DNA of 44,803 bases, taken from IMG/VR virus record IMGVR_UViG_3300020401_001045, positions 1 to 44,803 of that record. One strand, 5' to 3'. The translations under genes and the position numbers were made by a program. The notes beneath the pieces were generated by a model that did not search any database, had not been told where the DNA came from, and was given only the letters and a program-made list of their open reading frames with translations. The stretch comes from a virus. Below are positions 28,648 through 42,015 of this stretch, in pieces. How positions within the stretch are numbered: position 1 is the stretch's first letter; each line of letters opens with the position of its first letter.

Positions 28648-28768
28648 ATTTTTTCTTTTTCTTGCCTGCACAATGGGCCTTTTGAGAGAACCCTTTAGGG
28701 TTGGAACAGTTAATACTTTTCTTGTATTTTGCTGACCACTTTTCAGGGATTATCTCTTTTGCCCTCAT
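28646..28768 (-). CDS. Small Cys-containing conserved protein, 40 aa
   Basis: ATG 28768 overlaps the upstream stop as ATGA. The protein reads EIIPEKWSAKYKKSINCSNP followed by KGFSQKAHCAGKKKKK. The pattern KW-x3-YKxSI-x-CSNPKGFSQxAHCxG is repeatedly seen in phage proteins and often sits as a domain in longer ones, which supports this short gene. Two Cys and a His could bind metal. Function unknown. Confidence 0.75.
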   Translation of the reverse strand: MRAKEIIPEKWSAKYKKSINCSNPKGFSQKAHCAGKKKKK

Positions 28769-29268
28769 TTTGTCTTGACGTTCTTGGCTTTACCGCGTCT
28801 ATTTTTGTTTGGATCTTCGCGACGCTTACGACTTGCGGCCTTTTTACGGCCTTTTTTACCTAGTGCGTATGCTTTTGCGGCTGGTAAACACTTAGGCTTA
28901 CCTTCTTTAGAACTGCCTCTAGCACATTGTCCTCTTACTTTTCCATCAGGACCGAAACGCACCCACTTTTGTTTGAACCACTTTTTAAGGTTTTCGTTTA
29001 ATTCAACTTCTTCTGAAAATAATAAATTGCCACACTTAACACAATAGTCTACGTGTTCACGTTTAACGCAGTTGGGTACACGTTTTCCGAACATGGTTTT
29101 CATGCCCTTCTTTTCGTAACCCTTCCAACAACGTGTTCCTTCGTCTATTTCTGCATTACAATTACAATGTGGACAGTCTGGTTTGCAACCACAGTCTTCT
29201 GCTTTTACGTCAGCACCGCAACACTTGGGTGAGCAGTGGGTATCTCTTTTGAACTCTACGAAACGCAT
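28765..29268 (-). CDS. Cys-rich zinc-binding-like protein with basic C-terminal domain, 167 aa
   Basis: The N-terminus begins MRFVEFKRD, similar to the leaders of the next genes. Residues of about 12-48 hold many Cys (CSPKCCGADVKAEDCGC, then PDCPHCNC), followed by YCVKCG near residue 75, so one or more zinc sites are likely. The C-terminal half (KKWFKQKWVRFGPDGKVRGQ, then CARGSS and basic repeats) matches a domain found in many phage proteins (DUF5872-like by memory). A DNA- or capsid-associated role is plausible; function unknown. Confidence 0.7.
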   Translation of the reverse strand: MRFVEFKRDTHCSPKCCGADVKAEDCGCKPDCPHCNCNAEIDEGTRCWKGYEKKGMKTMFGKRVPNCVKREHVDYCVKCGNLLFSEEVELNENLKKWFKQKWVRFGPDGKVRGQCARGSSKEGKPKCLPAAKAYALGKKGRKKAASRKRREDPNKNRRGKAKNVKTK

Positions 29269-30203
29269 TACTTACTCTTGTTGCCCCAGTTCTTAGCACC
29301 CTTTTTTCTGCACTGAACTAAAGCACCAGAGGCGTAAGCACTTGGCCAAACTTTATATCTTGACTTTACTTTGTGATAACAAGCATCTTTCTTTTCTGCT
29401 AGTTTTTCAAACTCTTCTTCAGTAATTGCTTTACCAACAGACTCTTCTAAAGAACTGAATGATTCTTTTTTCTTTTTATTATGCTTGTCTTTGATTTTTC
29501 CTATTTCTTCTGCACTCGCACCTTTACCTGCGGCACTTTGAATCTTTTTCATACCATCTTTACCGTACTTCTTTACACCTGCACGGTACATGATACCACT
29601 TTCATCTGTTTCTTGATCTTTGCTTTCTTTCTTTGCCATCTTTGTTGCAGTGGCATACATTACTGCTTCAGCATCATCACCATAACGATCTTTAAAGTCG
29701 CCTTTGGCTTTTTTCATACCTTTGACGTACTTTTCTTTTTTCTTTTCTTCGCCTTTAGTTAATGAACGCTCAGTCTTTTTTTTAGAAAGGACTCGATTTA
29801 ATTCTTCTGCTAATTCTTCTTTGTAGTCTATGGACTCTTTTTTATCTTTTTTTGCTTCTTTATCTTTGATTGCTTTCTTCATTGGCTCTTTTTTATTGCC
29901 ATCTTTGTCCATGTCTAAGAAATCTGGTTTTGCTTTTGCTTCTGTTTGAACTTGTTCGAACTTTTGTTCATAATCCATATGATGATAAACACTGCTTAGG
30001 TAATCGCCTGCTTTTGTTATTTTAGATTGTACCCAACCTTCTAAACCTTCTTGTTCAGAAATGCCTTTTAACATTTCATGAAGTTTAATTGCATACTTTC
30101 CAATTTTGTATAACTCTGCACGAGCCATTTGCACTTCATGGTCTTTCTCAACCTTGTGTGCCAAATCCGCTAAACCTTCGTTTTTAAGTTCTTTCTCTTT
30201 CAT
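29268..30203 (-). CDS. Lys-rich late protein, 311 aa
   Basis: Very Lys/Glu-rich with helical segments (LADLAHKVEKDHEVQMARAE; LYKIGKYAIKLHEMLKGISE), a long charged middle with KK-rich linkers, and a C-terminal domain ACYHKVKSRYKVWPSAYASG followed by ALVQCRKKGAKNWGNKS that is common in marine T4-like phage proteins. The composition resembles internal or scaffold-like head proteins. No enzymatic motif. Function unknown. Confidence 0.7.
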   Translation of the reverse strand: MKEKELKNEGLADLAHKVEKDHEVQMARAELYKIGKYAIKLHEMLKGISEQEGLEGWVQSKITKAGDYLSSVYHHMDYEQKFEQVQTEAKAKPDFLDMDKDGNKKEPMKKAIKDKEAKKDKKESIDYKEELAEELNRVLSKKKTERSLTKGEEKKKEKYVKGMKKAKGDFKDRYGDDAEAVMYATATKMAKKESKDQETDESGIMYRAGVKKYGKDGMKKIQSAAGKGASAEEIGKIKDKHNKKKKESFSSLEESVGKAITEEEFEKLAEKKDACYHKVKSRYKVWPSAYASGALVQCRKKGAKNWGNKSK

Positions 30204-30211
30204 AACAGTAT

Positions 30212-30793
30212 TTACCTCTTTTGAATGTTTCCACCAAATAGACTTGCACCTTTCATATCCAGTGCATTAACGGCCGTTCCTTTAGGAGTTTTCTTTTGAT
30301 CTGCTTTAGGAACACCCTTACCGTCTTTTTTTACTTTTGCATAAGCAGTTATAGGGTTTGCCACAGTTGCTATTGCACCTGCACTAGTGGCTCCTGGTGT
30401 AGCCGCTTCTTCAACGTCCATGCTTTGTGTAACTGCTTGTTGTTGTGCTGGTTGTTGTGCCGCTTGTTTTTTAGCACCTGCTTCTGCTTGTTTTACAAGC
30501 ATCATAAACTTGTTTCTTAATGTTGTATCTGCAAGTATAGTAGATAGTTGCTTGGCAAATGGAGCAATTTGTTTGGATAAGTTTCCTGTCAAAGCACCAC
30601 CTGAGGCAAGTTTATCTAAGCCTTTTGCCATCATTCCACCTGTACCTTTTCCACCCATCTTTTGAGCCGCCATTTTAGCACCTTGACCAACTTTTTGTGC
30701 AACCTGTTTTACTGCACCAGCCGCCTTTGTTGCAGGGGCCTGTTGTTGTGCTAATGGGTTTTCACGTACCTGTGTTATTTCTCTAAGTTTCAT
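30212..30793 (-). CDS. Ala/Gln-rich late protein with MKLREI leader, 193 aa
   Basis: Starts MKLREITQVRENPLAQ. The rest is low-complexity, with Ala/Gln-rich and Gly/Lys-rich stretches (AAQKMGGKGTGGMMAKGLDK; KKQAAQQPAQQQAVTQSMD) and a short helical centre (QLSTILADTTLRNKFMMLVK). It has the composition of an internal head protein or core protein. The leader resembles those of neighbouring genes. Function unknown. Confidence 0.65.
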   Translation of the reverse strand: MKLREITQVRENPLAQQQAPATKAAGAVKQVAQKVGQGAKMAAQKMGGKGTGGMMAKGLDKLASGGALTGNLSKQIAPFAKQLSTILADTTLRNKFMMLVKQAEAGAKKQAAQQPAQQQAVTQSMDVEEAATPGATSAGAIATVANPITAYAKVKKDGKGVPKADQKKTPKGTAVNALDMKGASLFGGNIQKR

Positions 30794-30797
30794 ACTA

Positions 30798-32267
30798 CTA
30801 TTTACCTTTTTTTGCCTTCCCTCTACGCATATTTAACTGCCATTGGGCCATGCGCCTCTTCTCTCCTGAACTAGATTTAGCAATCTTACTTAATTGGCTT
30901 ATGGATGCTCCTTTTGGTATTCCAACTCTCTTGCTAAGGCCCTTACGTCCAGGCTTCTTACCATCCGCAAAGTTCTCGCTCATTATGTTTTCCAAGTATG
31001 TGTCTACCATTTTTACCAAAGCATACTCGTGATCTAGCAGACGTAGTGCATCGTATCTATGATGGCCGTTGACAATACGTCCTCTGCGGTCAACAACTAT
31101 CGGTTTGTATTCATCTAATTGAACATCTCGATATTGTTTCGCTAGTTTTCTAAAGGATCTGTCTTTTTGTACTGGTATCATGAGAGCGACTTTCATTTTA
31201 CCTAGTTTGCCATCCACGTCTTTGGAATGTATTTGCGGAGGTGCGTCACCTTTAGTAGGTTCTGGGTCAAAGTTGTGGTCTTGATAACCACTTACATCAC
31301 CAACCTTATATCCTAATCTCTTAAGGTTGGAAATCATATGTTTCTTTTCTTTTTCACCTCCAAAGAAGTTTAACATAATATCTTGGTCACCCATATTAGC
31401 ATCATCTGGATTAGTTGTTGCTATGTTGGCCATATTACGTCCTAACTTCATAAAGTCGTAATCAGTTGCATCTGAATCAACTGAAACACTATTTTGTGGA
31501 AGTGGAATTAAGTCGCCTTCGGTTGCTGGTTTTTCAAAGTATTGTTTTAGACTACTTGCAGTTCTTTCGAACTTATGATCTTTATGTTTGAATCCAACTC
31601 CGCCTGCGCCTTCCCATTTCTTAACGTTTTGTCCAAAGTCATCAATTAAAATGTTTGGAGTGCCATCTTTTTGTTTTGCGTATGCTTGTTTGTTTGCAGT
31701 AATGATAACTTTCTTAGGTGGAAATGCTTTTAAATATTTCTCAACCCAAGCACGTTTATCAGGTTCTGCTCTTGGATCATCTGCTAAAGGAGCCGACAAA
31801 ATATTATACTCACCTTTTATGTCTTTGATAATAGATAATAGTTTGTTTGCATTTTTAGTAGGTTTTAAATTAAGCCAAAAGTCTTCGGTATCTCTTACTT
31901 TCTGTAATCCTGCTTCTACATCTTTTATTTGAAACCACTTTTTAACTTTCATTAGTTTAGTCCATGCACCAAAGAAGTCAACAAGCACACCATCCATATC
32001 AACAAATATTTCACTTGCACTTGATAATTCTAACTCTTTGGCTCTTACTTCATTTAGTTTGCTTTCTGCTAAACCTAAATTAAACAATGTGTTAGGACTA
32101 GAATTTTTTCTTGCTTTTTTATTAAGTTCTGGAGGACGACCGTCCTTATCAACTTTGAAGCCAAACTTTCCTGCTTCAATAGGAATTTGATTTACGCCAA
32201 CGTCAGGCGTAGTGTTTACACCTTTAACGATTCTTCCACCATGCTCATATAGTTGACGTAATTTCAT
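30798..32267 (-). CDS. Fusion: 5'(3')-deoxyribonucleotidase-like HAD domain plus ParB-like domain, 489 aa
   Basis: After the leader MKLRQLYEHGG and a linker of 75 residues, a HAD domain follows with VDMDGVLVDFFGAW (D90, D92) and ILIDDFGQNVKKWEGAGG (about 206-223), as in NT5C-type deoxyribonucleotidases. A ParB/Srx-like domain has KPIVVDRRGRIVNGHHRYDA (about 388-407). The C-terminus is basic with GASISQLSKIAKSSSGEKRR. Nucleotidase and ParB-like activities are family inference; the reason for the fusion is unknown. It lies in the cluster of genes with similar leaders. Confidence 0.8.
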   Translation of the reverse strand: MKLRQLYEHGGRIVKGVNTTPDVGVNQIPIEAGKFGFKVDKDGRPPELNKKARKNSSPNTLFNLGLAESKLNEVRAKELELSSASEIFVDMDGVLVDFFGAWTKLMKVKKWFQIKDVEAGLQKVRDTEDFWLNLKPTKNANKLLSIIKDIKGEYNILSAPLADDPRAEPDKRAWVEKYLKAFPPKKVIITANKQAYAKQKDGTPNILIDDFGQNVKKWEGAGGVGFKHKDHKFERTASSLKQYFEKPATEGDLIPLPQNSVSVDSDATDYDFMKLGRNMANIATTNPDDANMGDQDIMLNFFGGEKEKKHMISNLKRLGYKVGDVSGYQDHNFDPEPTKGDAPPQIHSKDVDGKLGKMKVALMIPVQKDRSFRKLAKQYRDVQLDEYKPIVVDRRGRIVNGHHRYDALRLLDHEYALVKMVDTYLENIMSENFADGKKPGRKGLSKRVGIPKGASISQLSKIAKSSSGEKRRMAQWQLNMRRGKAKKGK

Positions 32268-32268
32268 T

Positions 32269-32463
32269 TTACTTGATTAACTCACAGGTTTTTGCATCGG
32301 CTGTAAGTTCTTCACCTTTTTTGTGTAACCATATGTAAGAGTAAACAATTTGTCCATCTCCTGCTACGGTACATTTTTTACCTAGTTTAACACTTGGTGG
32401 AACAATGTGTCCACTACAAGATGCTAACATCAATCCTGTTAATAATATTGCTATTGTTTTCAT
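32269..32463 (-). CDS. Small lipoprotein, 64 aa
   Basis: MKTIAILLTGLMLASCSGH has a signal peptide with lipobox LASC (C16), so the mature protein should be lipid-anchored in the periplasm or outer membrane. Three further Cys-containing stretches (KCTVAGDG, KTCELIK) could form a disulfide. Beta-rich remainder. The stop lies 2 nt before the next gene. Role unknown. Confidence 0.75.
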   Translation of the reverse strand: MKTIAILLTGLMLASCSGHIVPPSVKLGKKCTVAGDGQIVYSYIWLHKKGEELTADAKTCELIK

Positions 32464-32678
32464 TTTTTCCTTCCTCTAAAACCTGGAACGCCCTGCATAT
32501 ATGGTCTTCCAAACCATAACTTGAACCACTCTGAGTCACCAGGTTTCAAACCTAGTTCTCTTTCTTTTTGCTTGAGAGCAGTTGCAGTATGACTAATATT
32601 GATATCTTCAGCGGTAACTGGACGTTGTCCTTTATATTCTGGGATACCTGCTAATTTTTTTAAATCCGCGATATCCAT
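32460..32678 (-). CDS. Conserved hypothetical protein, 72 aa
   Basis: Starts MDIADLKKLAGIPEYKGQ, a leader-like helix typical of small marine phage proteins (x-L-x-x-L-A-G-I), and ends in a basic tail (MQGVPGFRGRKK). The middle is EDINISHTATALKQKERELG. It overlaps the lipoprotein gene by ATGA. Function unknown. Confidence 0.6.
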   Translation of the reverse strand: MDIADLKKLAGIPEYKGQRPVTAEDINISHTATALKQKERELGLKPGDSEWFKLWFGRPYMQGVPGFRGRKK

Positions 32679-32679
32679 T

Positions 32680-33564
32680 TTACCTCGCCTTTCTTATTTC
32701 TGCTTTTAATCCCAAATTTTTAAACAAAGTGTATGCAGTCTGTACACTTGTTAATGCTTTTTTAATTTCATCTATGTAGTCTGGATTATCATCTACTTTA
32801 CGCATGAACTTTTTAGCATTAATAGGATCAACAAAAAGTAAATTACCTGAGTATGCCGCTCCTGGTTTGTAGAAACTTAAGAAATGTTCTTTGCCATCTG
32901 TCCTAGCCGCAATCCAATCTAAAACTTTAAGTTTGTTTGGATCTTGCAGTTTAGGATCTGCATTATCAACTTCTTTACTTTTAAAAATATTTAATTCATT
33001 TACATCTTCACCGAGTATAGTTGACAAGTTGTCAAACATTTTCTTGGCGTAAGGTTGTGCTGATTTAGTAACTCCTTTACTAAACGCATCAAAATCATTA
33101 TCTTGTACTGCTTTTCTTAATTTACTTGCACTCATACCTGAGGCATCTTCCGCATCTGGATTTCTTGATAGTCTTTCAAACTTTATTTCTTCAAATTCAA
33201 AGAAACCATGTGCTGACTTTTGTCCGTTATACTTTTCTAAAAGAGAACCTAACTTATCTTCACCTTCAAAAAAAGTTACACTTCTATATCCTCTTCCATA
33301 CAGATCACTAGCCGCAAACATTATATTTTTAGCAAGTTCTATTTTAATATCGGGGAAACTTTTCCTTGCCCAATCTAATTTTTCATTTGGGTTAAGTGGA
33401 TCTGTTGGAAGTTTTGCTGGTCTGTCTGTTAAAAATAAAATAGCATCGCCTGGACCTTGCCTAACTGCTTCGACAAGCAATCCGTGACCAGTTGTTGCAG
33501 GATTTAATCTGCCTAATGCAAAACTGACACTTTTGTTCGGTGATGTTATTTCCCTTAAACGCAT
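32680..33564 (-). CDS. Cytidylyltransferase-like nucleotidyltransferase with MRLREI leader, 294 aa
   Basis: After MRLREITSPNKS comes SFALGRLNPATTGHGLLVEA with the GRxNPxTxGH motif (18-27) of the nucleotidylyltransferase superfamily. SGMSASKLRKAV (142-153) corresponds to the ISSTxIR-like phosphate-binding motif. The C-terminal 100 residues are an extra domain. Such enzymes transfer an adenylyl or cytidylyl group, as in NMN adenylyltransferases; the substrate here is unknown. It lies among genes with similar N-terminal leaders. Confidence 0.8.
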   Translation of the reverse strand: MRLREITSPNKSVSFALGRLNPATTGHGLLVEAVRQGPGDAILFLTDRPAKLPTDPLNPNEKLDWARKSFPDIKIELAKNIMFAASDLYGRGYRSVTFFEGEDKLGSLLEKYNGQKSAHGFFEFEEIKFERLSRNPDAEDASGMSASKLRKAVQDNDFDAFSKGVTKSAQPYAKKMFDNLSTILGEDVNELNIFKSKEVDNADPKLQDPNKLKVLDWIAARTDGKEHFLSFYKPGAAYSGNLLFVDPINAKKFMRKVDDNPDYIDEIKKALTSVQTAYTLFKNLGLKAEIRKAR

Positions 33565-33566
33565 TT

Positions 33567-33902
33567 TTAATATTCGCCTTTTTTAACTTCTTCTAGTTCT
33601 TCGTTATATATTTCTTGTACTAAAGCATCTTTATCTTCTTTTGTCAATAACTCTGTAGGGGATTTGATAATATCGTATTTTTGACAATAGTGTTGTATTG
33701 CTTTTTCTACCATTTCCTTGACGCCTTCCATGTTGTGGTCGCCTTTATCATAGTTGTCTTTTAGATTAGCCATACAAGGGAAGTACATTTTTCTATAAAA
33801 CATTGGGTCATCACGCATATGACATTTTAAGTCATCGATTATATCATAACCAATGTCTTCTTTTTTGTCTATGTCAATGTCTGTAAACTCTTTAAGTTTC
33901 AT
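33567..33902 (-). CDS. Conserved hypothetical protein with MKLKEF leader, 111 aa
   Basis: Starts MKLKEFTDIDIDKKEDIGYD, then a helical domain (DDLKCHMRDDPMFYRKMYFP; DKGDHNMEGVKEMVEKAIQH). The stretch DDPxFYRKxYFPxM is a pattern of marine T4-like phage hypotheticals. The acidic C-terminus (VQEIYNEELEEVKKGEY) is helical. Function unknown. Confidence 0.65.
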   Translation of the reverse strand: MKLKEFTDIDIDKKEDIGYDIIDDLKCHMRDDPMFYRKMYFPCMANLKDNYDKGDHNMEGVKEMVEKAIQHYCQKYDIIKSPTELLTKEDKDALVQEIYNEELEEVKKGEY

Positions 33903-33903
33903 C

Positions 33904-34263
33904 TTACCACTTTCTACAAGACCAATATCTTGCTTTTGTTCTTGGACCAGGATTATCGCAGTTATGTCTTGCTCTAAAACTTCTACGTCTTGCTGGATTT
34001 GATTTTTTAATCTTCATGTTTGGATCACCAAAGTTAACTTTTTTAACGTTTTTTGTCTTTGGATCTTTGACGTAAACTTTAAACTTCTTAACATCGCCTC
34101 TCATTGGCTTGCCTAGTTTAACTTTACGGCCTTGATATTCTGCTTCATCTACAATATCATCATCGTTGAACCATAATTCGCCGTATGCTTCATAGAAGTC
34201 ATCACCGTCGTATGTTTCTTCTTTGTATATTGACTCTGAAAGATATTCTTTAAAATTCTTCAT
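33904..34263 (-). CDS. Conserved phage protein with CTS-like leader, 119 aa
   Basis: Starts at ATG 34263 (AAGGGGA upstream); an ATG at 34296 is also in frame but lacks a site. The leader MKNFKEYLSES resembles the capsid-targeting peptide of T4 internal proteins. The body GRKVKLGKPMRGDVKKFKVY, VKKVNFGDPNMKIKKSNPAR and RRSFRARHNCDNPGPRTKAR is a widespread phage domain. A GATAAATA box precedes the gene. It is probably a late head-associated protein (inference). Confidence 0.75.
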   Translation of the reverse strand: MKNFKEYLSESIYKEETYDGDDFYEAYGELWFNDDDIVDEAEYQGRKVKLGKPMRGDVKKFKVYVKDPKTKNVKKVNFGDPNMKIKKSNPARRRSFRARHNCDNPGPRTKARYWSCRKW

Positions 34264-34286
34264 AGCGATATTCCCCTTATATAGAG

Positions 34287-34294
34287 TATTTATC
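34287..34294 (-). promoter_or_regulatory. T4-like late promoter box GATAAATA
   Basis: The minus strand reads GATAAATA, 7 of 8 to TATAAATA, 23 nt before the ATG at 34263, in a 43-nt gap between genes. Confidence 0.6.
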
Positions 34295-34306
34295 ACTATA
34301 TAGTAA

Positions 34307-34573
34307 CTAGACTGATATTTCTATATCGAAGTTATCGTACCCTAGATCGAAGAATTTGTTGGCAATATGCTCCGCTAACTTGTTGGATTCGTCCTCATCT
34401 AATGCAAAATGAGTGTCAATAGTAAGCACGGTCTTGCCACCTGTGGTATCGTATGCTGAGTATGTAGTTTCTTCTTCAACAAGTGGTAAAGTAGCACCAT
34501 TAAGCACTGATTCTACTGCTATATCGTCTATTTCTTCTTTCTTGTCGAATACAATGTTAATAAAATGGCTCAT
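34307..34573 (-). CDS. Conserved hypothetical protein, 88 aa
   Basis: Acidic alpha/beta protein with FINIVFDKKEEIDDIAVESV and VLTIDTHFALDEDESNKLAE. The order suggests a small ferredoxin-like fold with a C-terminal strand (DNFDIEISV). ATG 34573 with little spacing from the next gene. No known function. Confidence 0.6.
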   Translation of the reverse strand: MSHFINIVFDKKEEIDDIAVESVLNGATLPLVEEETTYSAYDTTGGKTVLTIDTHFALDEDESNKLAEHIANKFFDLGYDNFDIEISV

Positions 34574-34941: not shown

Positions 34942-37182
34942 CTATGCTTCTACGAGTTTTGTTTCTTTGACCTGTAAGTCTATCTTACCATCAGTTACGT
35001 TTATGTGCAGTTTGCCACCCTTTTTAAGAGCACCAAATAGCACCATTTTACTTAGGTCAGTTTTAATCTCTTTGTCAATTACTCTTTGCAATGGTCTTGC
35101 ACCCATTTTAGCATCAAATCCTTTATCTACCAAATAGTCTATTGCTTGATCATCTATGGTTACATCAACATTTTTCTCGACTAGCATATTCTTAAGTTCA
35201 AGTAAGAACTTACCAACGATTTTAATCATTATATTCTTCTCTAATTTACCAAATGCAATTACACCATCAAGTCTATTCCTAAACTCTGGAGCAAAGAAAC
35301 GTTTAAGTTCTGTATCTTCATAGTCTACATCAAGATCTTGATTGAAGCCGATCGCATTTTTCTCAGCCTGTTCTGCACCTAAGTTTGTGGTTAGGATTAA
35401 AACTGAATTCCTTGCGTCGGCTTCCTTACCGTTGCTACCAGTAATTCTTCCGTTATCCATAATTTGTAAAAGGATAGTTGAAACATCTGGGTGTGCTTTT
35501 TCTACTTCATCAAGTAGTAATACACAGTTAGGATGTTCTTGTAATTTTGTAATTAATAGTCCTGCATTTTCTTCATATCCAACATATCCTGGAGGAGAAC
35601 CAATCAGTTTTGCTACTGCGTGTTTCTCTTGATACTCAGACATATCAAATCTAACAAGTTTAACTGACAATTCTTCTGCAAGTCTTTTAGCAGTTTCAGT
35701 TTTACCTACTCCTGTTGGACCCATAAACACAAAAGAACCTACAGGCTTGTTATCAACTTTAAGTCCTGCTTGGGCAACAAGTATCTTCTCTACAATCTCG
35801 TCAATTGCTTTCTCTTGACCAAACACAACCTTTTTAAGATTCTTATCAAGGTTAGCCAAGTTACTTGTTTCTTTTTGTTGTACTTGTTCTGGTGGAAGTT
35901 TAACTGCTTTTGCAAGTTCAAATTGTATTTCTTCTGCATCTACAATCTTATCGCCTTCAACTTTCTTTAATTTAAATCTAGCACAGGCCAAATCAATCAA
36001 GTCAATTGCTTTATCTGGAAGTTTCTTATCACTTTGATACTTAACCGAAAGTTTAATTGCATTATGTAATGCTTCTTCAGTAATATTAACTGCATGATAG
36101 TCTTCATAATACTTCTTTATACCTTTAAGTATATCTAGTGTTACTTCATTTGTAGGTTCATCAACACTTATTCTTTGGAATCTACGCATCAATGCTCTAT
36201 CTTTTTCAAAATACTTTCTATATTCTTCCCAAGTTGTTGAAGCAATAACTTTAATGTCACCTTTACCTAATGCTGGTTTCAACATATTTGCAAGATCAGT
36301 TGAACTGTTTTGTCCTCCTGCACCTGCACCACTTATCATGTGTGCTTCGTCTATGAACACAATAGTTTTACCTTGTTTTTTAATACCTGCCATTACTAAT
36401 TTGAAACGTTCTTCAAAGTCACCTCTGTATTTAGAACCAGCCAACATGGCACTTATATCTAAATTGTAAACTTTGTACTCTTGTAAAAATTCTGGAACTG
36501 CTTTATTAACAATATTAAATGCTAAACCTTCTGCAATAGCAGTCTTACCAACACCTGGATCACCTACTAATAAAACGTTGCTCTTTTGTCTACGTCCTAA
36601 TGCTAATGCAATAGATTCTAACTCTTCATTACGTCCAATAACAGGATCAATTTTGTTAGATGTTACTTCTTTGTTAAGATCTGATGTGTATTCTCTTAAT
36701 GCTCTAAGAGCCACACCTCTTAATTCTTCATCTTCGTATTGTGCATCAACTTCGCTACTAATATACTCGGCAAATTTTTCTTTCTCTACTCCACACTTTG
36801 TCATATGGTAGTATGCCCAAGACTTTTTCTCGTTCAATACACTAATGAATACATCTGTAATTTCTATTAAGTGCCTACCACTAAACAAAACCTGTGTAAA
36901 TGCTCTGTTCAAAACTCTTTCAACAGTTGCAGTCTTTTTAGGTTTGAATTTAGTTGCAGTAGTTTTAAGATCTTCACAGTCGGGCCCTTTTAAATATGCT
37001 TCAAGGCCAGTTTTCATTGCTTTGACATCAACACCATAACCGTCTACTATCTTTTCAAAGTTGTCAACACACAACATTGCATAGACCATATGCTCTAAAG
37101 TTACGTATTCATGCTTTAACTTCTTAGCATCACCTAATGCTTTATCAAAAACTAACTGTAATCCTTCACTTGGTTCTACCAT
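34942..37182 (-). CDS. clpA: ClpA-like AAA+ unfoldase
   Basis: 746 aa, near E. coli ClpA (758 aa). An N-domain (EGLQLVFDKALGDAKKLKHE; EYVTLEHMVYAML) is followed by D1 with GDPGVGKT (207-214) and FIDEAHMISGAG (276-287), and D2 with GPTGVGKT (488-495) and LLLDEVEKAHPD (555-566). The ClpP-docking loop IGF (611-613) is present in NAIGFNQDL, and the arginine finger is in APEFRNRLDG. It should unfold substrates and feed them to a host ClpP. The ATG overlaps def by 7 nt. Probably transcribed from the dnaJ promoter. Confidence 0.95.
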   Translation of the reverse strand: MVEPSEGLQLVFDKALGDAKKLKHEYVTLEHMVYAMLCVDNFEKIVDGYGVDVKAMKTGLEAYLKGPDCEDLKTTATKFKPKKTATVERVLNRAFTQVLFSGRHLIEITDVFISVLNEKKSWAYYHMTKCGVEKEKFAEYISSEVDAQYEDEELRGVALRALREYTSDLNKEVTSNKIDPVIGRNEELESIALALGRRQKSNVLLVGDPGVGKTAIAEGLAFNIVNKAVPEFLQEYKVYNLDISAMLAGSKYRGDFEERFKLVMAGIKKQGKTIVFIDEAHMISGAGAGGQNSSTDLANMLKPALGKGDIKVIASTTWEEYRKYFEKDRALMRRFQRISVDEPTNEVTLDILKGIKKYYEDYHAVNITEEALHNAIKLSVKYQSDKKLPDKAIDLIDLACARFKLKKVEGDKIVDAEEIQFELAKAVKLPPEQVQQKETSNLANLDKNLKKVVFGQEKAIDEIVEKILVAQAGLKVDNKPVGSFVFMGPTGVGKTETAKRLAEELSVKLVRFDMSEYQEKHAVAKLIGSPPGYVGYEENAGLLITKLQEHPNCVLLLDEVEKAHPDVSTILLQIMDNGRITGSNGKEADARNSVLILTTNLGAEQAEKNAIGFNQDLDVDYEDTELKRFFAPEFRNRLDGVIAFGKLEKNIMIKIVGKFLLELKNMLVEKNVDVTIDDQAIDYLVDKGFDAKMGARPLQRVIDKEIKTDLSKMVLFGALKKGGKLHINVTDGKIDLQVKETKLVEA

Positions 37183-37700
37183 TTAATATCCACCTTATAT
37201 TTTTTAAATAATTTCTTCTGCTTCTTCTTTGCCATTTCTAATCTTAACTTGCTTACTCTGTCGGTAAAGTTAATACCATACAAGTGATCATATTCATGAC
37301 CAAAGATTCTAGCATTCCAACCTAATAACTCTATTTTACATTCTTTTTTGTCTAAGTCAAGATACTCTACTACCAAACCCTTGGGTCTGTTTACCTTTAA
37401 GTATAGTCCAGGGTAACTTAAACAACCTTCAACTCCTAGTTCCATGTCTTCAGTAACTGCTTCTATCTTTGGATTGATAAGTGCTATTGGTTTTTCGTCT
37501 TCGTGATCTTTTAAACCAGTTGGCTTTATAATAAAGATTTGTGCATCAAGTTCAACTTGATTAGCGGCTAAACCAACACCGTTACTTTTTTCCATAATGC
37601 CAATCATTTCTTTGCTTACTAAATGAGGATCATGTGTAGTAAAGTCAAAAGGTTTAACCTTTTTCTCTAACCATTTATTAGGATGATAAATTAGTTTCAT
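37176..37700 (-). CDS. def: Peptide deformylase
   Basis: 174 aa. The three motifs are GVGLAANQ (41-48), EGCLS (91-95; C93 binds the metal) and HEYDH (135-139). The enzyme removes the formyl group from the N-terminal Met of new proteins. Phage deformylases are known in T4-like marine phages. The C-terminus is a Lys-rich helix. It overlaps dnaJ by 23 nt upstream and clpA by 7 nt downstream, so the three appear as one operon. Confidence 0.95.
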   Translation of the reverse strand: MKLIYHPNKWLEKKVKPFDFTTHDPHLVSKEMIGIMEKSNGVGLAANQVELDAQIFIIKPTGLKDHEDEKPIALINPKIEAVTEDMELGVEGCLSYPGLYLKVNRPKGLVVEYLDLDKKECKIELLGWNARIFGHEYDHLYGINFTDRVSKLRLEMAKKKQKKLFKKYKVDIKW

Positions 37701-38547
37701 TTTTAATCTTCTGTAATATTTCTTTCTGTGGTTCTGTTAAATTTTTTGGAACTACTCCGTTGAGCCTTAAGAATATATTGCCTTTCGCACCAGTACGATA
37801 GTCAGGAAGTCCTGCACCTGATAAACTCATTGTTGTTCCAGGTTGTGTGCCCGCCGGTACATTAATATTTAACTCTCTACCTTCAGGAGTACTTAAAGAT
37901 ACGGTTGTTCCGCACATTAAATCAAATATGTTTAAATTTTTGGTAGTCTCTAAATTTAAACCATGTACATCAAACTCTGGGTGTCTTCTATATCTTACTC
38001 TAACTATTAAATCCCCTCGTGGAAGTTGTGTAATTGAATCATCACCTAGTCCTCCAAATCTAATATTATCGCCTGCTTTTGCACCAACGGGTATATCTAT
38101 ATTAACAGTTTGTTCTTTACCTGTGTGTGTTCTAAATGTAGCAATAACACCTTTGCCTTTGTAAACATCTTGTAAGTCTATGTCACAAGCAATAGTAATA
38201 TCTCTGTTCTTTACTTGTCTTTGTCTTTGGAATGGAGAATTGCCTCCAAAAAAAGATGCAAATACATCTTCAAATCCTTGGCCATTACCCATATTAAAAT
38301 GAAATTGTTGTCCGCCCATGTTTGGATTGAATCCTGCCTGTTGCGGATCAGCAGTTCCAAACTGATCATACATCTGTTTCTTTTCTGGATTACTTAATAC
38401 TTGATATGCTTCGTTTATTTCTTTGAATTTGGTATCATCGCCACCTGTGCGATCAGGATGGTGTTGCATACTTTGTTTTTTGTATGCTTTCTTTATATCA
38501 GTATCTGATGCGTTTCGTGAAACGCCTAAAAGGTCGTAATAATCCAT
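37678..38547 (-). CDS. dnaJ: DnaJ-like co-chaperone (CbpA-type, no zinc domain)
   Basis: 289 aa. J domain DYYDLLGVSRNASDTDIKKA with HPD (30-32), a Gly/Phe/Asn-rich linker (about 75-110), then two C-terminal beta domains (ITIACDIDLQDVYKGKG; VRVRYRRHPEFDVHGLN). The zinc-finger Cys repeats of class A DnaJ are absent, so it is CbpA/DnaJB-like. It would direct host DnaK to substrates. A promoter lies so that transcription would start at the ATG itself; no ribosome binding site is seen. Confidence 0.95.
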   Translation of the reverse strand: MDYYDLLGVSRNASDTDIKKAYKKQSMQHHPDRTGGDDTKFKEINEAYQVLSNPEKKQMYDQFGTADPQQAGFNPNMGGQQFHFNMGNGQGFEDVFASFFGGNSPFQRQRQVKNRDITIACDIDLQDVYKGKGVIATFRTHTGKEQTVNIDIPVGAKAGDNIRFGGLGDDSITQLPRGDLIVRVRYRRHPEFDVHGLNLETTKNLNIFDLMCGTTVSLSTPEGRELNINVPAGTQPGTTMSLSGAGLPDYRTGAKGNIFLRLNGVVPKNLTEPQKEILQKIKNETNLSS

Positions 38548-40217: not shown

Positions 40218-40632
40218 TTTTCTCTTTCTCCGTTAATGGACTTCCCATTGCAATTTCTTGACATCGCATTGCATTGTTACTTCCTTTATTAATTATCTTT
40301 TCAACCGATGATGGTCTCTTCGTTGCGAGATCACCAATATCACGTACCTCGCCTTTTCCGTTTATTTTATTGAATTTTTGATCCAAAGCCTTAAACTCGG
40401 CTTTAAGGATTAAATTTTGTTTTTCTATTTCTGCTTTAATTTTAGTCATTGCTTCAAAGTCTGCTTTCATCTGTTGAATAACTGCTTTTTGACTATCTAT
40501 ACTTTGTTCCAATTTTAGATTATTTGCTTCTGAGGTTGCCAAGTCTGCTTTTAGATTCTTTACATACATGAATCCGCCTCCAGCACCTGCTAACACTACT
40601 AACATTAATGCAATTTTTATAGAACTAAACAC
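40147..40632 (-). CDS. i-spanin-like protein (Rz-like), 161 aa
   Basis: One N-terminal membrane anchor (about 5-24, IKIALMLVVLAGAGGGFMYV), a long coiled coil to about residue 90 (LATSEANNLKLEQSIDSQKA; EAMTKIKAEIEKQNLILKAE) and a C-terminal part with Cys residues. The start is GTG at 40632 with GTGGAGG 7 nt upstream, overlapping the ACP-like stop as GTGTTTAG. With the overlapping lipoprotein it forms a two-component spanin, predicted to fuse inner and outer membranes. Confidence 0.75.
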   Translation of the reverse strand: MFSSIKIALMLVVLAGAGGGFMYVKNLKADLATSEANNLKLEQSIDSQKAVIQQMKADFEAMTKIKAEIEKQNLILKAEFKALDQKFNKINGKGEVRDIGDLATKRPSSVEKIINKGSNNAMRCQEIAMGSPLTEKEKNATKKSEINSICPSIANPNYVPH

Positions 40633-40849
40633 TCTTTGCCTCCACTAATTTAATAAAGTCGCCAACTGTTTTTACATTGGCTTCTTCTTCAGTTGAAATA
40701 GTTGTACCTGTTGCTTCTTGTATTGCAATGGTTAGTTCAACTATATCAAATTCGTCAGCACCTAAGTCATCTATTAAAGATGCACCTGGTATGACCTTAG
40801 ACACATCAACGTCTAAATGTTCTGCTATTGCTTTAACTACTTTTTCCAT
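40625..40849 (-). CDS. Acyl-carrier-protein-like protein without the attachment serine, 74 aa
   Basis: The fold and motifs match ACP (EHLDVDVSKVIPGASLIDDL, IVELTIAIQEATG, VKTVGDFIKLV). But the phosphopantetheine motif, normally DSL, reads D32-E33-F34 (GADEFDIVEL), so no Ser is present to be modified. It may be a structural mimic that binds host fatty-acid enzymes or acyl partners, or a protein with another role. The ATG is within the end of a 46-aa gene. The next gene in transcription is the i-spanin. Confidence 0.85.
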   Translation of the reverse strand: MEKVVKAIAEHLDVDVSKVIPGASLIDDLGADEFDIVELTIAIQEATGTTISTEEEANVKTVGDFIKLVEAKSV

Positions 40850-40973
40850 CTTCTTCCTCGTATCTTGCGTGTTCGCAAACCACTATCTCTATAGGTTTGT
40901 TATCACCGTCCTTGAACTCTTCGATTAATCTACCTTCATGAGCCCTACCACAATTCTGGCAAGTCTTTATCAT
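40833..40973 (-). CDS. Small zinc-ribbon-like protein, 46 aa
   Basis: ATG 40973 overlaps the endolysin stop as ATGA, and its stop lies 17 nt inside the ACP-like gene. The protein has CQNCGR near the start (C5, C8) and VVCEHARY (C33, H35), a CxxC...CxH set that could hold zinc. The overlapping junctions support it. Function unknown. Confidence 0.6.
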   Translation of the reverse strand: MIKTCQNCGRAHEGRLIEEFKDGDNKPIEIVVCEHARYEEEDGKSS

Positions 40974-41494
40974 ACAAGTTTCAATGCTTCTTCAGTGGTC
41001 TCTGTGGTTCTACGTGTCCAACCTTTGCCAAACGTTGCAAATGTACTCAGTCCTTCGTAGTATGCTTGTCTACGTTTTTGATATTCTTTGATTACTTCAG
41101 CAACACCGCCGACTTCTTCTTCATAGTTCGCTAACGCCTTAAGTGTGTTAGGACCTATTCCACCGTCTGCTACTGTTCCAATCATAGTCTGCAAATACTT
41201 TGCGGCTCTACCTGGACCAGCATTAACGCCAAAGTCGAAAATGCAAAGGTCTAAACCTCCTGGAAGGTCATCGCCTTTAATTGATTTCCAATAGTTCTTC
41301 TCATAGATAGGGGCAACATCTTCGGGAGTCAATGCTCTCATATCACTCTCATCAACTTCCTTGCCTACCCATGATTCGTAAACTCTTTTTGTAACACCCA
41401 AGTTTGTCATTCCACCTGGGTCTTTAGGGTGATTAACATAACCACCTTCATGATGTAAAATTATTTCCAAACAGTGTTTGAAATTATTCGCCAT
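40970..41494 (-). CDS. GH108-type endolysin (N-acetylmuramidase)
   Basis: 174 aa. The catalytic motif HHEGGYVNHPKDPGGMTNLG (E16) is that of glycosyl hydrolase family 108. Later IFDFGVNAGPGRAAKYLQTM and DGGIGPNTLKALAN match the peptidoglycan-binding C-terminal region. It should cleave the glycan strands of peptidoglycan at lysis. No signal peptide is seen, so access needs a holin. It follows the paralogue at 41494-42015 by a 1-nt overlap. Confidence 0.9.
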   Translation of the reverse strand: MANNFKHCLEIILHHEGGYVNHPKDPGGMTNLGVTKRVYESWVGKEVDESDMRALTPEDVAPIYEKNYWKSIKGDDLPGGLDLCIFDFGVNAGPGRAAKYLQTMIGTVADGGIGPNTLKALANYEEEVGGVAEVIKEYQKRRQAYYEGLSTFATFGKGWTRRTTETTEEALKLV

Positions 41495-42015
41495 TATACC
41501 ATTCCTTTTGCCGCGGCAGTGATTGTATCTACACGTGCCTTAAAAGCAGTCTTTTCGGATTCAGTTGCAGATGTTAATTTATCAATCCATGCTTTTCTAT
41601 GATCTTGGTATGTATCAATAGTTGCACTGATTCCTTTTTCTGCCACCATGTTTTCTAACAATCCTATTGTAATAGGACCAATCCATGTGTCTCTTTTTGC
41701 ACCAAGAACATATTGTAATTCTCTTTGTGCAATTTTTGGTTCTCTATATACTGCAAAATCAAATACGCATAAATCCATTCCCTTAGGAAGGTCATTACAC
41801 TTCATTAATTCCCAATACATTTTGTAAACACTCGCTACATCGTTCTCGGTAAATGCTTTTACTTTGTCTTTAGTAATCACTTTATTCATGTGATCTTCGT
41901 ATTCCTGTTTAGTGATACCTAAGTTGGAACACTTCTGATGGTCTGCATTATCTACAAATCCACTCTCATTTTCGAGCACAATTTTTAACGAAGGTTTAAA
42001 GTTTCCTGTTGCCAT
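41494..42015 (-). CDS. Diverged GH108-like paralogue, 173 aa
   Basis: It has the same length and layout as its neighbour: LENESGFVDNADHQKCSNLG keeps the Glu (E17) but loses the GG and DPGG motif. FDFAVYREPKIAQRELQYVL and DTWIGPITIGLLEN parallel the second half. The NxGGY changes suggest weak or altered activity. It arose by tandem duplication (inference). The catalytic ability needs testing; a virion-associated role is possible. Confidence 0.75.
   Translation of the reverse strand: MATGNFKPSLKIVLENESGFVDNADHQKCSNLGITKQEYEDHMNKVITKDKVKAFTENDVASVYKMYWELMKCNDLPKGMDLCVFDFAVYREPKIAQRELQYVLGAKRDTWIGPITIGLLENMVAEKGISATIDTYQDHRKAWIDKLTSATESEKTAFKARVDTITAAAKGMV

Follow-up and report, generated by a model that had tools for sequence, protein, structure and literature searches.

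A gene cluster on the minus strand at positions 28765-34263 of the virus record IMGVR_UViG_3300020401_001045 is likely an operon of packaged cargo, whose proteins bear a diverged form of the capsid-targeting and gp21-cleaved propeptide of phage T4. The window, by which we mean the whole record of 44,803 nucleotides, a 44.8-kb fragment with 76 predicted genes, comes from a large T4-superfamily phage; among cultured phages its polymerase is closest to those of Sinorhizobium phage Phosso and Agrobacterium phage Atu_ph07 (47-51% identity). Relatives of three of the cluster proteins have been detected in particles of a cultured cyanophage, so that the head of this phage is probably packed with enzymes already made. 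This reading is built on four computed results: a shared leader peptide, its conservation pattern, the gp21 and gp23 genes of relatives, and homology to virion-detected proteins. The N-termini of relatives were gathered from viral contigs; gp21 and gp23 genes are present in both of the longest, G1 at 268 kb and G2 at 200 kb, and no match to either gene was found in a third, G3 (157 kb), which may be incomplete. The cluster is missing at the syntenic spot in Atu_ph07.

The sequence-only reading had proposed that six consecutive genes share a leader that resembles the capsid-targeting sequence. All six open reading frames (ORFs) are present on the minus strand and begin exactly as quoted; they do lie within 28765-34263, but the interval holds nine genes, three of them without the leader. 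The pattern M[KR][LF]x[EQ][IFLYV] starts five of the 76 window genes, all in the cluster, where shuffled N-termini would give 0.04 (hypergeometric p = 7e-6 for the clustering), and the sixth leader gene, 33904, has a start of the T4 type, MKNFKEYLSES. As the pattern was written after the sequences were seen, the evolutionary tests across relatives carry more weight. The cluster proteins have no significant mutual similarity outside the leader, and MKLREIT, MRLREIT, MKLKEFT and MKLRQLY use different synonymous codons behind different upstream sequences; therefore selection acts on the peptide, and the leader is not a duplicated 5' end. A scan of the whole of G1 and G2 with the lineage pattern also matched unrelated genes, so the leader by itself does not classify genes cleanly across a genome. 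Outside the cluster region, a 188-residue protein at L103:2337-2903 (G1 40337-40903) has a near-perfect T4-type leader, MKTFADYLTES, and a weak match to a virion structural PHROG family.

For the evolutionary tests we scored all window genes for which eight or more different orthologous N-termini were available; these comprised nine cluster families (28765-34573) and 20 flanking ones. The mean fraction of orthologs with an early (L/I/V/M/F)xE, by residue 18, was 0.78 in the cluster families vs 0.24 in the flanking families (p=3e-4). Capsid-targeting geometry was found in at least 10% of orthologs in seven of the nine cluster families and in none of the 20 flanking families (p=2e-5), and in 91 of 276 cluster N-termini vs one of 395 elsewhere; with 34307, the probable border of the cluster, left out, six of eight cluster families still passed. 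The hydrophobic targeting positions of the six window leaders are 3/6 or 4/7, equivalent to residues 4 and 7 in T4. In the nucleotidyltransferase family the leader is mostly M(L/F/R/K/Q)LR(E/Q/H)(L/I/V/M)(F/Y/T/S)E with a next residue that varies but is usually small, and its place in the alignment is that of MKSFSAFLTEA or MKNFSSFLTEA in cultured phages. The nucleotidase/ParB family mostly has M(K/R)xxx(L/I/F)xE, with Glu8 invariant in a 19-member alignment of orthologs in which residues 2-7 vary. In the 28765 family the leader precedes different cores (MLLRELIE/GTRCW, MRWNEIEE/GTRCW, MKISELLE/QKRDTHC), a case of leader swapping.

A second peptide, (D/E)IxxLxxLAGI(x)E, noted in the window at 32460-32678, in G1 at 36252-38084 and in contigs L010, L068 and L085, forms the N-terminus of the 32460 protein and replaces the leader in some 33904 orthologs. 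It resembles the C-terminus of the scaffold protein gp22, IVDIRRLAGLK (G1 98391-99494), and may possibly be another core-binding signal; the generic motif xxLAG had no clear genome-wide enrichment in G1 and G2.

The T4 N-termini of the internal proteins (IPs) IPII and IPIII (MKTYQEFIAEA), of IPI (MKTFKEFTSTTTPVSTITEA) and of gp24 (MAKINELLRES) bracket the window forms. T4 IP propeptides have 10-19 residues, of which residues 4 and 7 serve targeting and residues 8 and 10 processing; gp21 cuts after (L/I)xE, and Asp at position 10 blocks processing while still allowing targeting (PMC9026906). The IP leaders and the window leaders are alike in their N-terminal place, a length of about 10-19 residues, hydrophobic residues every three positions and, in some window leaders and in most relatives of the two enzyme families, an (L/I)xE end, which in T4 precedes a small residue. 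In particular, MKTYQEFIAE/A of IPII and IPIII is very near MKNFKEYLSE/S of the window gene 33904, and MKTFKEFTSTTTPVSTITE/A of IPI is paralleled by relatives of 30212 such as MKLREITESKIVTE/N. In T4 the leader likewise sits on unrelated basic proteins, and in 28765-34263 all of the nine encoded proteins except the acidic 33567 have an isoelectric point (pI) of 8.9-10.3. Compared with those of the IPs, most window leaders are shorter by one or two residues (MKLRQLYE), many are aliphatic rather than aromatic, and several have lost the cleavage Glu; the cargo also differs, in that it includes nucleotide-metabolism enzymes, larger than the T4 IPs, and one family with a copy of a gp23 segment. The closest T4 look-alike of MKLRELFE/A is gp24 (MAKINELLRE/S), with a short aliphatic leader ending in L-x-E; however, gp24 is the capsid vertex protein, and nothing suggests that the window proteins are gp24 homologs. 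The proposal of a shared capsid-targeting-like leader holds as far as its occurrence on unrelated proteins, its T4-like hydrophobic spacing and its (L/I)xE end in relatives are concerned, but not for every window leader, several of which have no Glu at the cleavage position. By analogy with T4, where targeting survives the loss of processing, those leaders might still direct their proteins to the head.

The 30212 family holds a possible further link to the capsid. Its members contain xxE/(T/A)AT(A/P)G(A/S)TSAGx(I/V)A, which is almost the same as the stretch of gp23 that surrounds the predicted gp21 cleavage site in G1 (LNE/TATAGSTSAGNVATLNR) and G2, and among the predicted genes of these two genomes the arm sequence occurs in gp23 and the 30212 family only. 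This copy of the gp23 N-terminal arm at a predicted cleavage site is new in this analysis. We scanned six-frame open segments by local alignment against the maxima obtained with shuffled arms (only 12 shuffles per genome). After gp23 itself, the best match to a phage's own gp23 arm was a cluster protein in G1 (63 vs a null maximum of 45), G2 (58 vs 44), S-CREM2 (gp160, 95 vs 50) and S-SM1 (T4-GC426, 62 vs 47); the best score in Melnitz only equals the null maximum (41), and none above the null was found in HTVC008M. The arm reads TATAGxTSAGxxAT in the window group and GFTGAAAPxGPxAG(F/Y)DP in cyanophages, and copies score high against the gp23 arm of their own lineage but low against that of another; thus the arm copy covaries with gp23. 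It is a tentative proposal, one that we hold at somewhat less than even confidence, that the copy is a second signal, by which one cargo protein per phage mimics the coat protein, docks on the capsid lattice or is co-processed with it, and co-evolves with it. It is via the arm segment that gp160 matches the "major head protein" profile phrog_696. Cyanophage "major head protein" annotations or profiles at L137:12634-13188, L153:7805-8353 (T4-GC426) and L142:33343-34236 (gp160) likewise appear to match via the gp23 arm copy, and these proteins are not full-length capsid proteins.

Evidence from purified particles is available for cultured cyanophages. Kyanoviridae have a related cluster, flanked by the gp41 and gp61 genes, whose proteins begin with, for example, MQGFKTFLSEA, MKKFSEIIEA and MKNFKNHIAEE (Melnitz) or MKSFSAFLTEA (ACG-2014g); the cultured pelagiphage HTVC008M carries the related cluster as well. 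The virion proteome of S-CREM2 comprises 52 proteins (PMC10665884). A strict motif derived from T4 IPIII alone, applied to S-CREM2 proteins outside the structural list of the authors, was present in six of 28 virion-associated vs three of 167 undetected proteins (p=3e-4); the broader leader pattern gave p=0.06 only. The six virion-associated carriers are the SAM hydrolase (MKDFDSFLEE), gp13 (MKDLHSFLTE), the APH kinase (MKRFDAFLTE), the cytidylyltransferase (MKNFSSFLTE), gp136 (MQTFSMFFSE) and Cas9 (RFASFMAEA at about residues 18-26). All three S-CREM2 proteins that are similar to cluster proteins were detected in virions (chance 0.013), namely the nucleotidyltransferase gp154, gp111, which has a module in common with 29268, and gp160, which combines the C-terminal module of 29268 with both modules of 28765. 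Similarly, the cytidyltransferase T4-GC190 of S-SM1, which was detected in purified virions (PMC3037559), starts with a clear capsid-targeting sequence, MKKFSAFLNEA, and the kinase of S-CRM01 starts with MISFDQFLSE; an S-CRM01 kinase is cited as found in virions by the S-CREM2 authors (PMC10665884). The homologous nucleotidyltransferase, the gp160-type modules and the T4-like MKxFxxFLxE leaders tie these virion enzymes to the window cluster, from which they differ in belonging to Kyanoviridae. The part of the S-CREM2 report accessible to us (PMC10665884) does not mention a capsid-targeting sequence, and no description of such sequences in cyanophages was found in the literature searched, where most subscription journals were missing.

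The virion-detected Cas9 of S-CREM2 (gp12, L143:7704-10313) has its T4-like peptide at about residues 18-27, and four related cyanophages have, in the corresponding place, ORFs (L146:3022-3345, L147:2843-3171, L148:2816-3144, L149:2738-3072) that carry FxxF(L/I/M)xEA or LDSFIKEAA at about the same residues. The shared peptide suggests that phage-borne Cas9 may be packaged.

The genes of the window cluster are listed in Table 1, each called in the text by its first coordinate. The sequence-only reading had named a nucleotidase/ParB fusion and a nucleotidyltransferase among them, and profile matches bear out both. The nucleotidase matches PF06941 over residues 87-224 (36.6 bits, curated cut-off 24.8), and a PDB search gave weak matches to 5'(3')-deoxyribonucleotidases; the nucleotidyltransferase matches phrog_3041 (E=1e-32) and has the conserved motif GRxNPxTxGH in the alignment, and its profile found no match in the PDB. 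None of the other cluster proteins matched a Pfam family above its cut-off. In the AlphaFold model of the 30798 protein the nucleotidase region has a predicted local distance difference test score of about 87; the domain arrangement is not reliable because the overall predicted template modeling score is 0.39. Residues 1-22 are disordered in the model, as would be expected of an accessible propeptide. The ParB-like module (GHHRYDAL) sits on the nucleotidase in the window and on the nucleotidyltransferase in G1 (L112:1283-3223), a placement that shows domain shuffling inside the leader-bearing cluster. The two modules of the 28765 protein (residues ~41-76 and ~93-164) are common to the virion-detected gp160 of S-CREM2, and the C-terminal module of 29268, KSRYKVWPSAYASGALVxCRKxGAKNWG (residues 259-311; 29271-29429), is 75% identical to gp160 over 53 residues. 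Translation of 33904 could also begin at a GTG farther out, at 34296, but close relatives keep the ATG at 34263. Elsewhere in the window, the adjacent ORFs 40970-41494 and 41494-42015 have similar N-termini and look like tandem muramidase-type paralogs, one of them diverged.

Table 1. Genes and signal-bearing segments of the leader cluster and its border in the window
Position	Strand	Product or segment	N-terminus (slash, predicted cleavage) and its position
28765-29268	-	Basic Cys-rich protein, 167 amino acids, pI 9.7	Leader MRFVEFKRD (29242-29268)
29268-30203	-	Basic protein, 311 amino acids	MKEKELKNEG; LKE/G in many relatives
30212-30793	-	Basic Ala/Gln/Lys-rich protein, 193 amino acids	Leader MKLREITQVRE (30761-30793)
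30353-30415	-	Module VEE/AATPGATSAGAIATVANP in the 30212 protein; gp23 N-arm copy at predicted gp21 cleavage site	
30798-32267	-	NT5C nucleotidase (residues 86-245) with ParB-like domain (~330-430), 489 amino acids	Leader MKLRQLYE/H (32244-32267)
32269-32463	-	Lipoprotein-like ORF, 64 amino acids, lipobox LASC; outside the proposed set	MKTIAILLTGLMLASC; no capsid-targeting-like leader
32460-32678	-	Basic protein, 72 amino acids	Different leader MDIADLKKLAGIPE/Y; relatives MDIxxLKxLAGI(N/G)E/(F/Y)
32680-33564	-	Nucleotidyl/cytidylyltransferase, 294 amino acids	Leader MRLREITSPN (33535-33564); relatives M(L/F/R)LREL(F/Y)E/(A/G)
33567-33902	-	Acidic protein, 111 amino acids	Leader MKLKEFTDID (33873-33902)
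33904-34263	-	Protein of 119 amino acids; basic C-terminal module NPARRRSFRARHNCDNPGPRTKARYWSCRKW (33907-33999)	T4-type leader MKNFKEYLSE/S (34234-34263)
34307-34573	-	Acidic protein, 88 amino acids	MSHFINIVFDKKEE; leader pattern matched only ambiguously (may be beta-strand start)

Several observations weigh against the cargo reading. In four of the six window leaders the expected position holds no clean (L/I)xE: a canonical gp21 site is found there only in 30798 (LYE/H) and 33904 (LSE/S), the predicted site of 30212 (VRE/N) is weak, and no usable one is present in 28765 (MRFVEFKRD), in 32680 (EITSPN, Glu lost) or in 33567, where the position is Asp, as it is, or lacks an acid, in many relatives of that family. 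Some members do not fit, since 33567 encodes an acidic protein and the starts of 29268 and 32460 are of other kinds. The search that the sequence-only reading had suggested, for the same leader and for gp21 in the phage genome, located the leader pattern within the window only in the cluster, but neither gp21 nor gp23 nor any other head gene was recognized within the 44.8-kb fragment. The cluster of G1 is ~110 kb away from the head genes, and the leader-bearing proteins of the G1 head region have no assigned function. The late promoter TATAAATA is not enriched in the window (one match vs six expected). Finally, the window phage is known from its genes alone, the virion data are those of other phages, and the S-CREM2 authors caution that abundant enzymes may co-purify with virions (PMC10665884).

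The last point, together with the frequent loss of the cleavage Glu in the window leaders and the T4 finding that Asp at position 10 stops processing but not targeting, would suit an alternative in which the proteins are virion components whose leader is an uncleaved helix interacting with the head core, or a remnant, and several of them are co-purifying cytoplasmic enzymes. We consider it unlikely: nearly every family retains the early (L/I/V/M/F)xE in the majority of its members, and this, with the invariant Glu of the nucleotidase/ParB family, is hard to explain without processing. Quite unlikely, too, is that the leader is a docking peptide for another phage protein, such as the neighboring Clp ATPase or DnaJ, acting in cytoplasmic folding or turnover and having nothing to do with the capsid. 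Short peptides at the N-terminus typically serve as adaptor sites, and ClpB-like and DnaJ-like genes adjoin the cluster in the window (34942-38547), G1, G2 and G3; however, leader-like starts also occur in the head regions of G2 (MKLQEVF) and G1 (MKINQIVTE), far from clp, the Glu position obeys the gp21 rules in most relatives, and homologs are detected in cyanophage virions. Chance or compositional likeness of AT-rich gene starts (ATGAAA...), to which the common MK start of phage proteins and the loose consensus of the first reading lend some color, is very improbable, as is common ancestry of paralogs, given the excess of leader genes over the shuffled expectation, the block conservation in relatives, flanking families without an equal leader frequency, and the lack of similarity outside the leader.

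We infer from the sequences that targeting, cleavage, packaging and injection would proceed in the window phage as follows. The leader, related to the T4 capsid-targeting sequence but diverged from it, would bind the prohead core, and gp21 would cut after (L/I)xE in most family members. The mature, mostly basic proteins would stay inside the head with the DNA; this cargo would comprise the nucleotidase/ParB fusion, the nucleotidyltransferase, and Cys-rich and Lys/Arg-rich modules, and could enter the host from there. The 30212 protein would probably dock on the capsid lattice, or be processed with it, via its copy of the gp23 arm. The idea of enzymes delivered with phage DNA is shared with injected multidomain (polyvalent) proteins such as P1 DarB (PMC5512222); the window differs in having many small separate proteins with a common leader.

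If this reading is true, a general route for loading enzymes into the head would be common to large uncultured phages and to cyano- and pelagiphages in culture, the enzymes including nucleotidyltransferases, the nucleotidase/ParB fusion, SAM hydrolase, a kinase and even Cas9. The gp23-arm copy would be a possible docking site for cargo, and its occurrence suggests that some cyanophage proteins annotated as "major head protein" would be cargo proteins. In genomes made up mostly of unknown genes, the leader would allow virion cargo to be predicted from sequence alone, and proteins for host takeover and counter-defense could be active as soon as infection begins.

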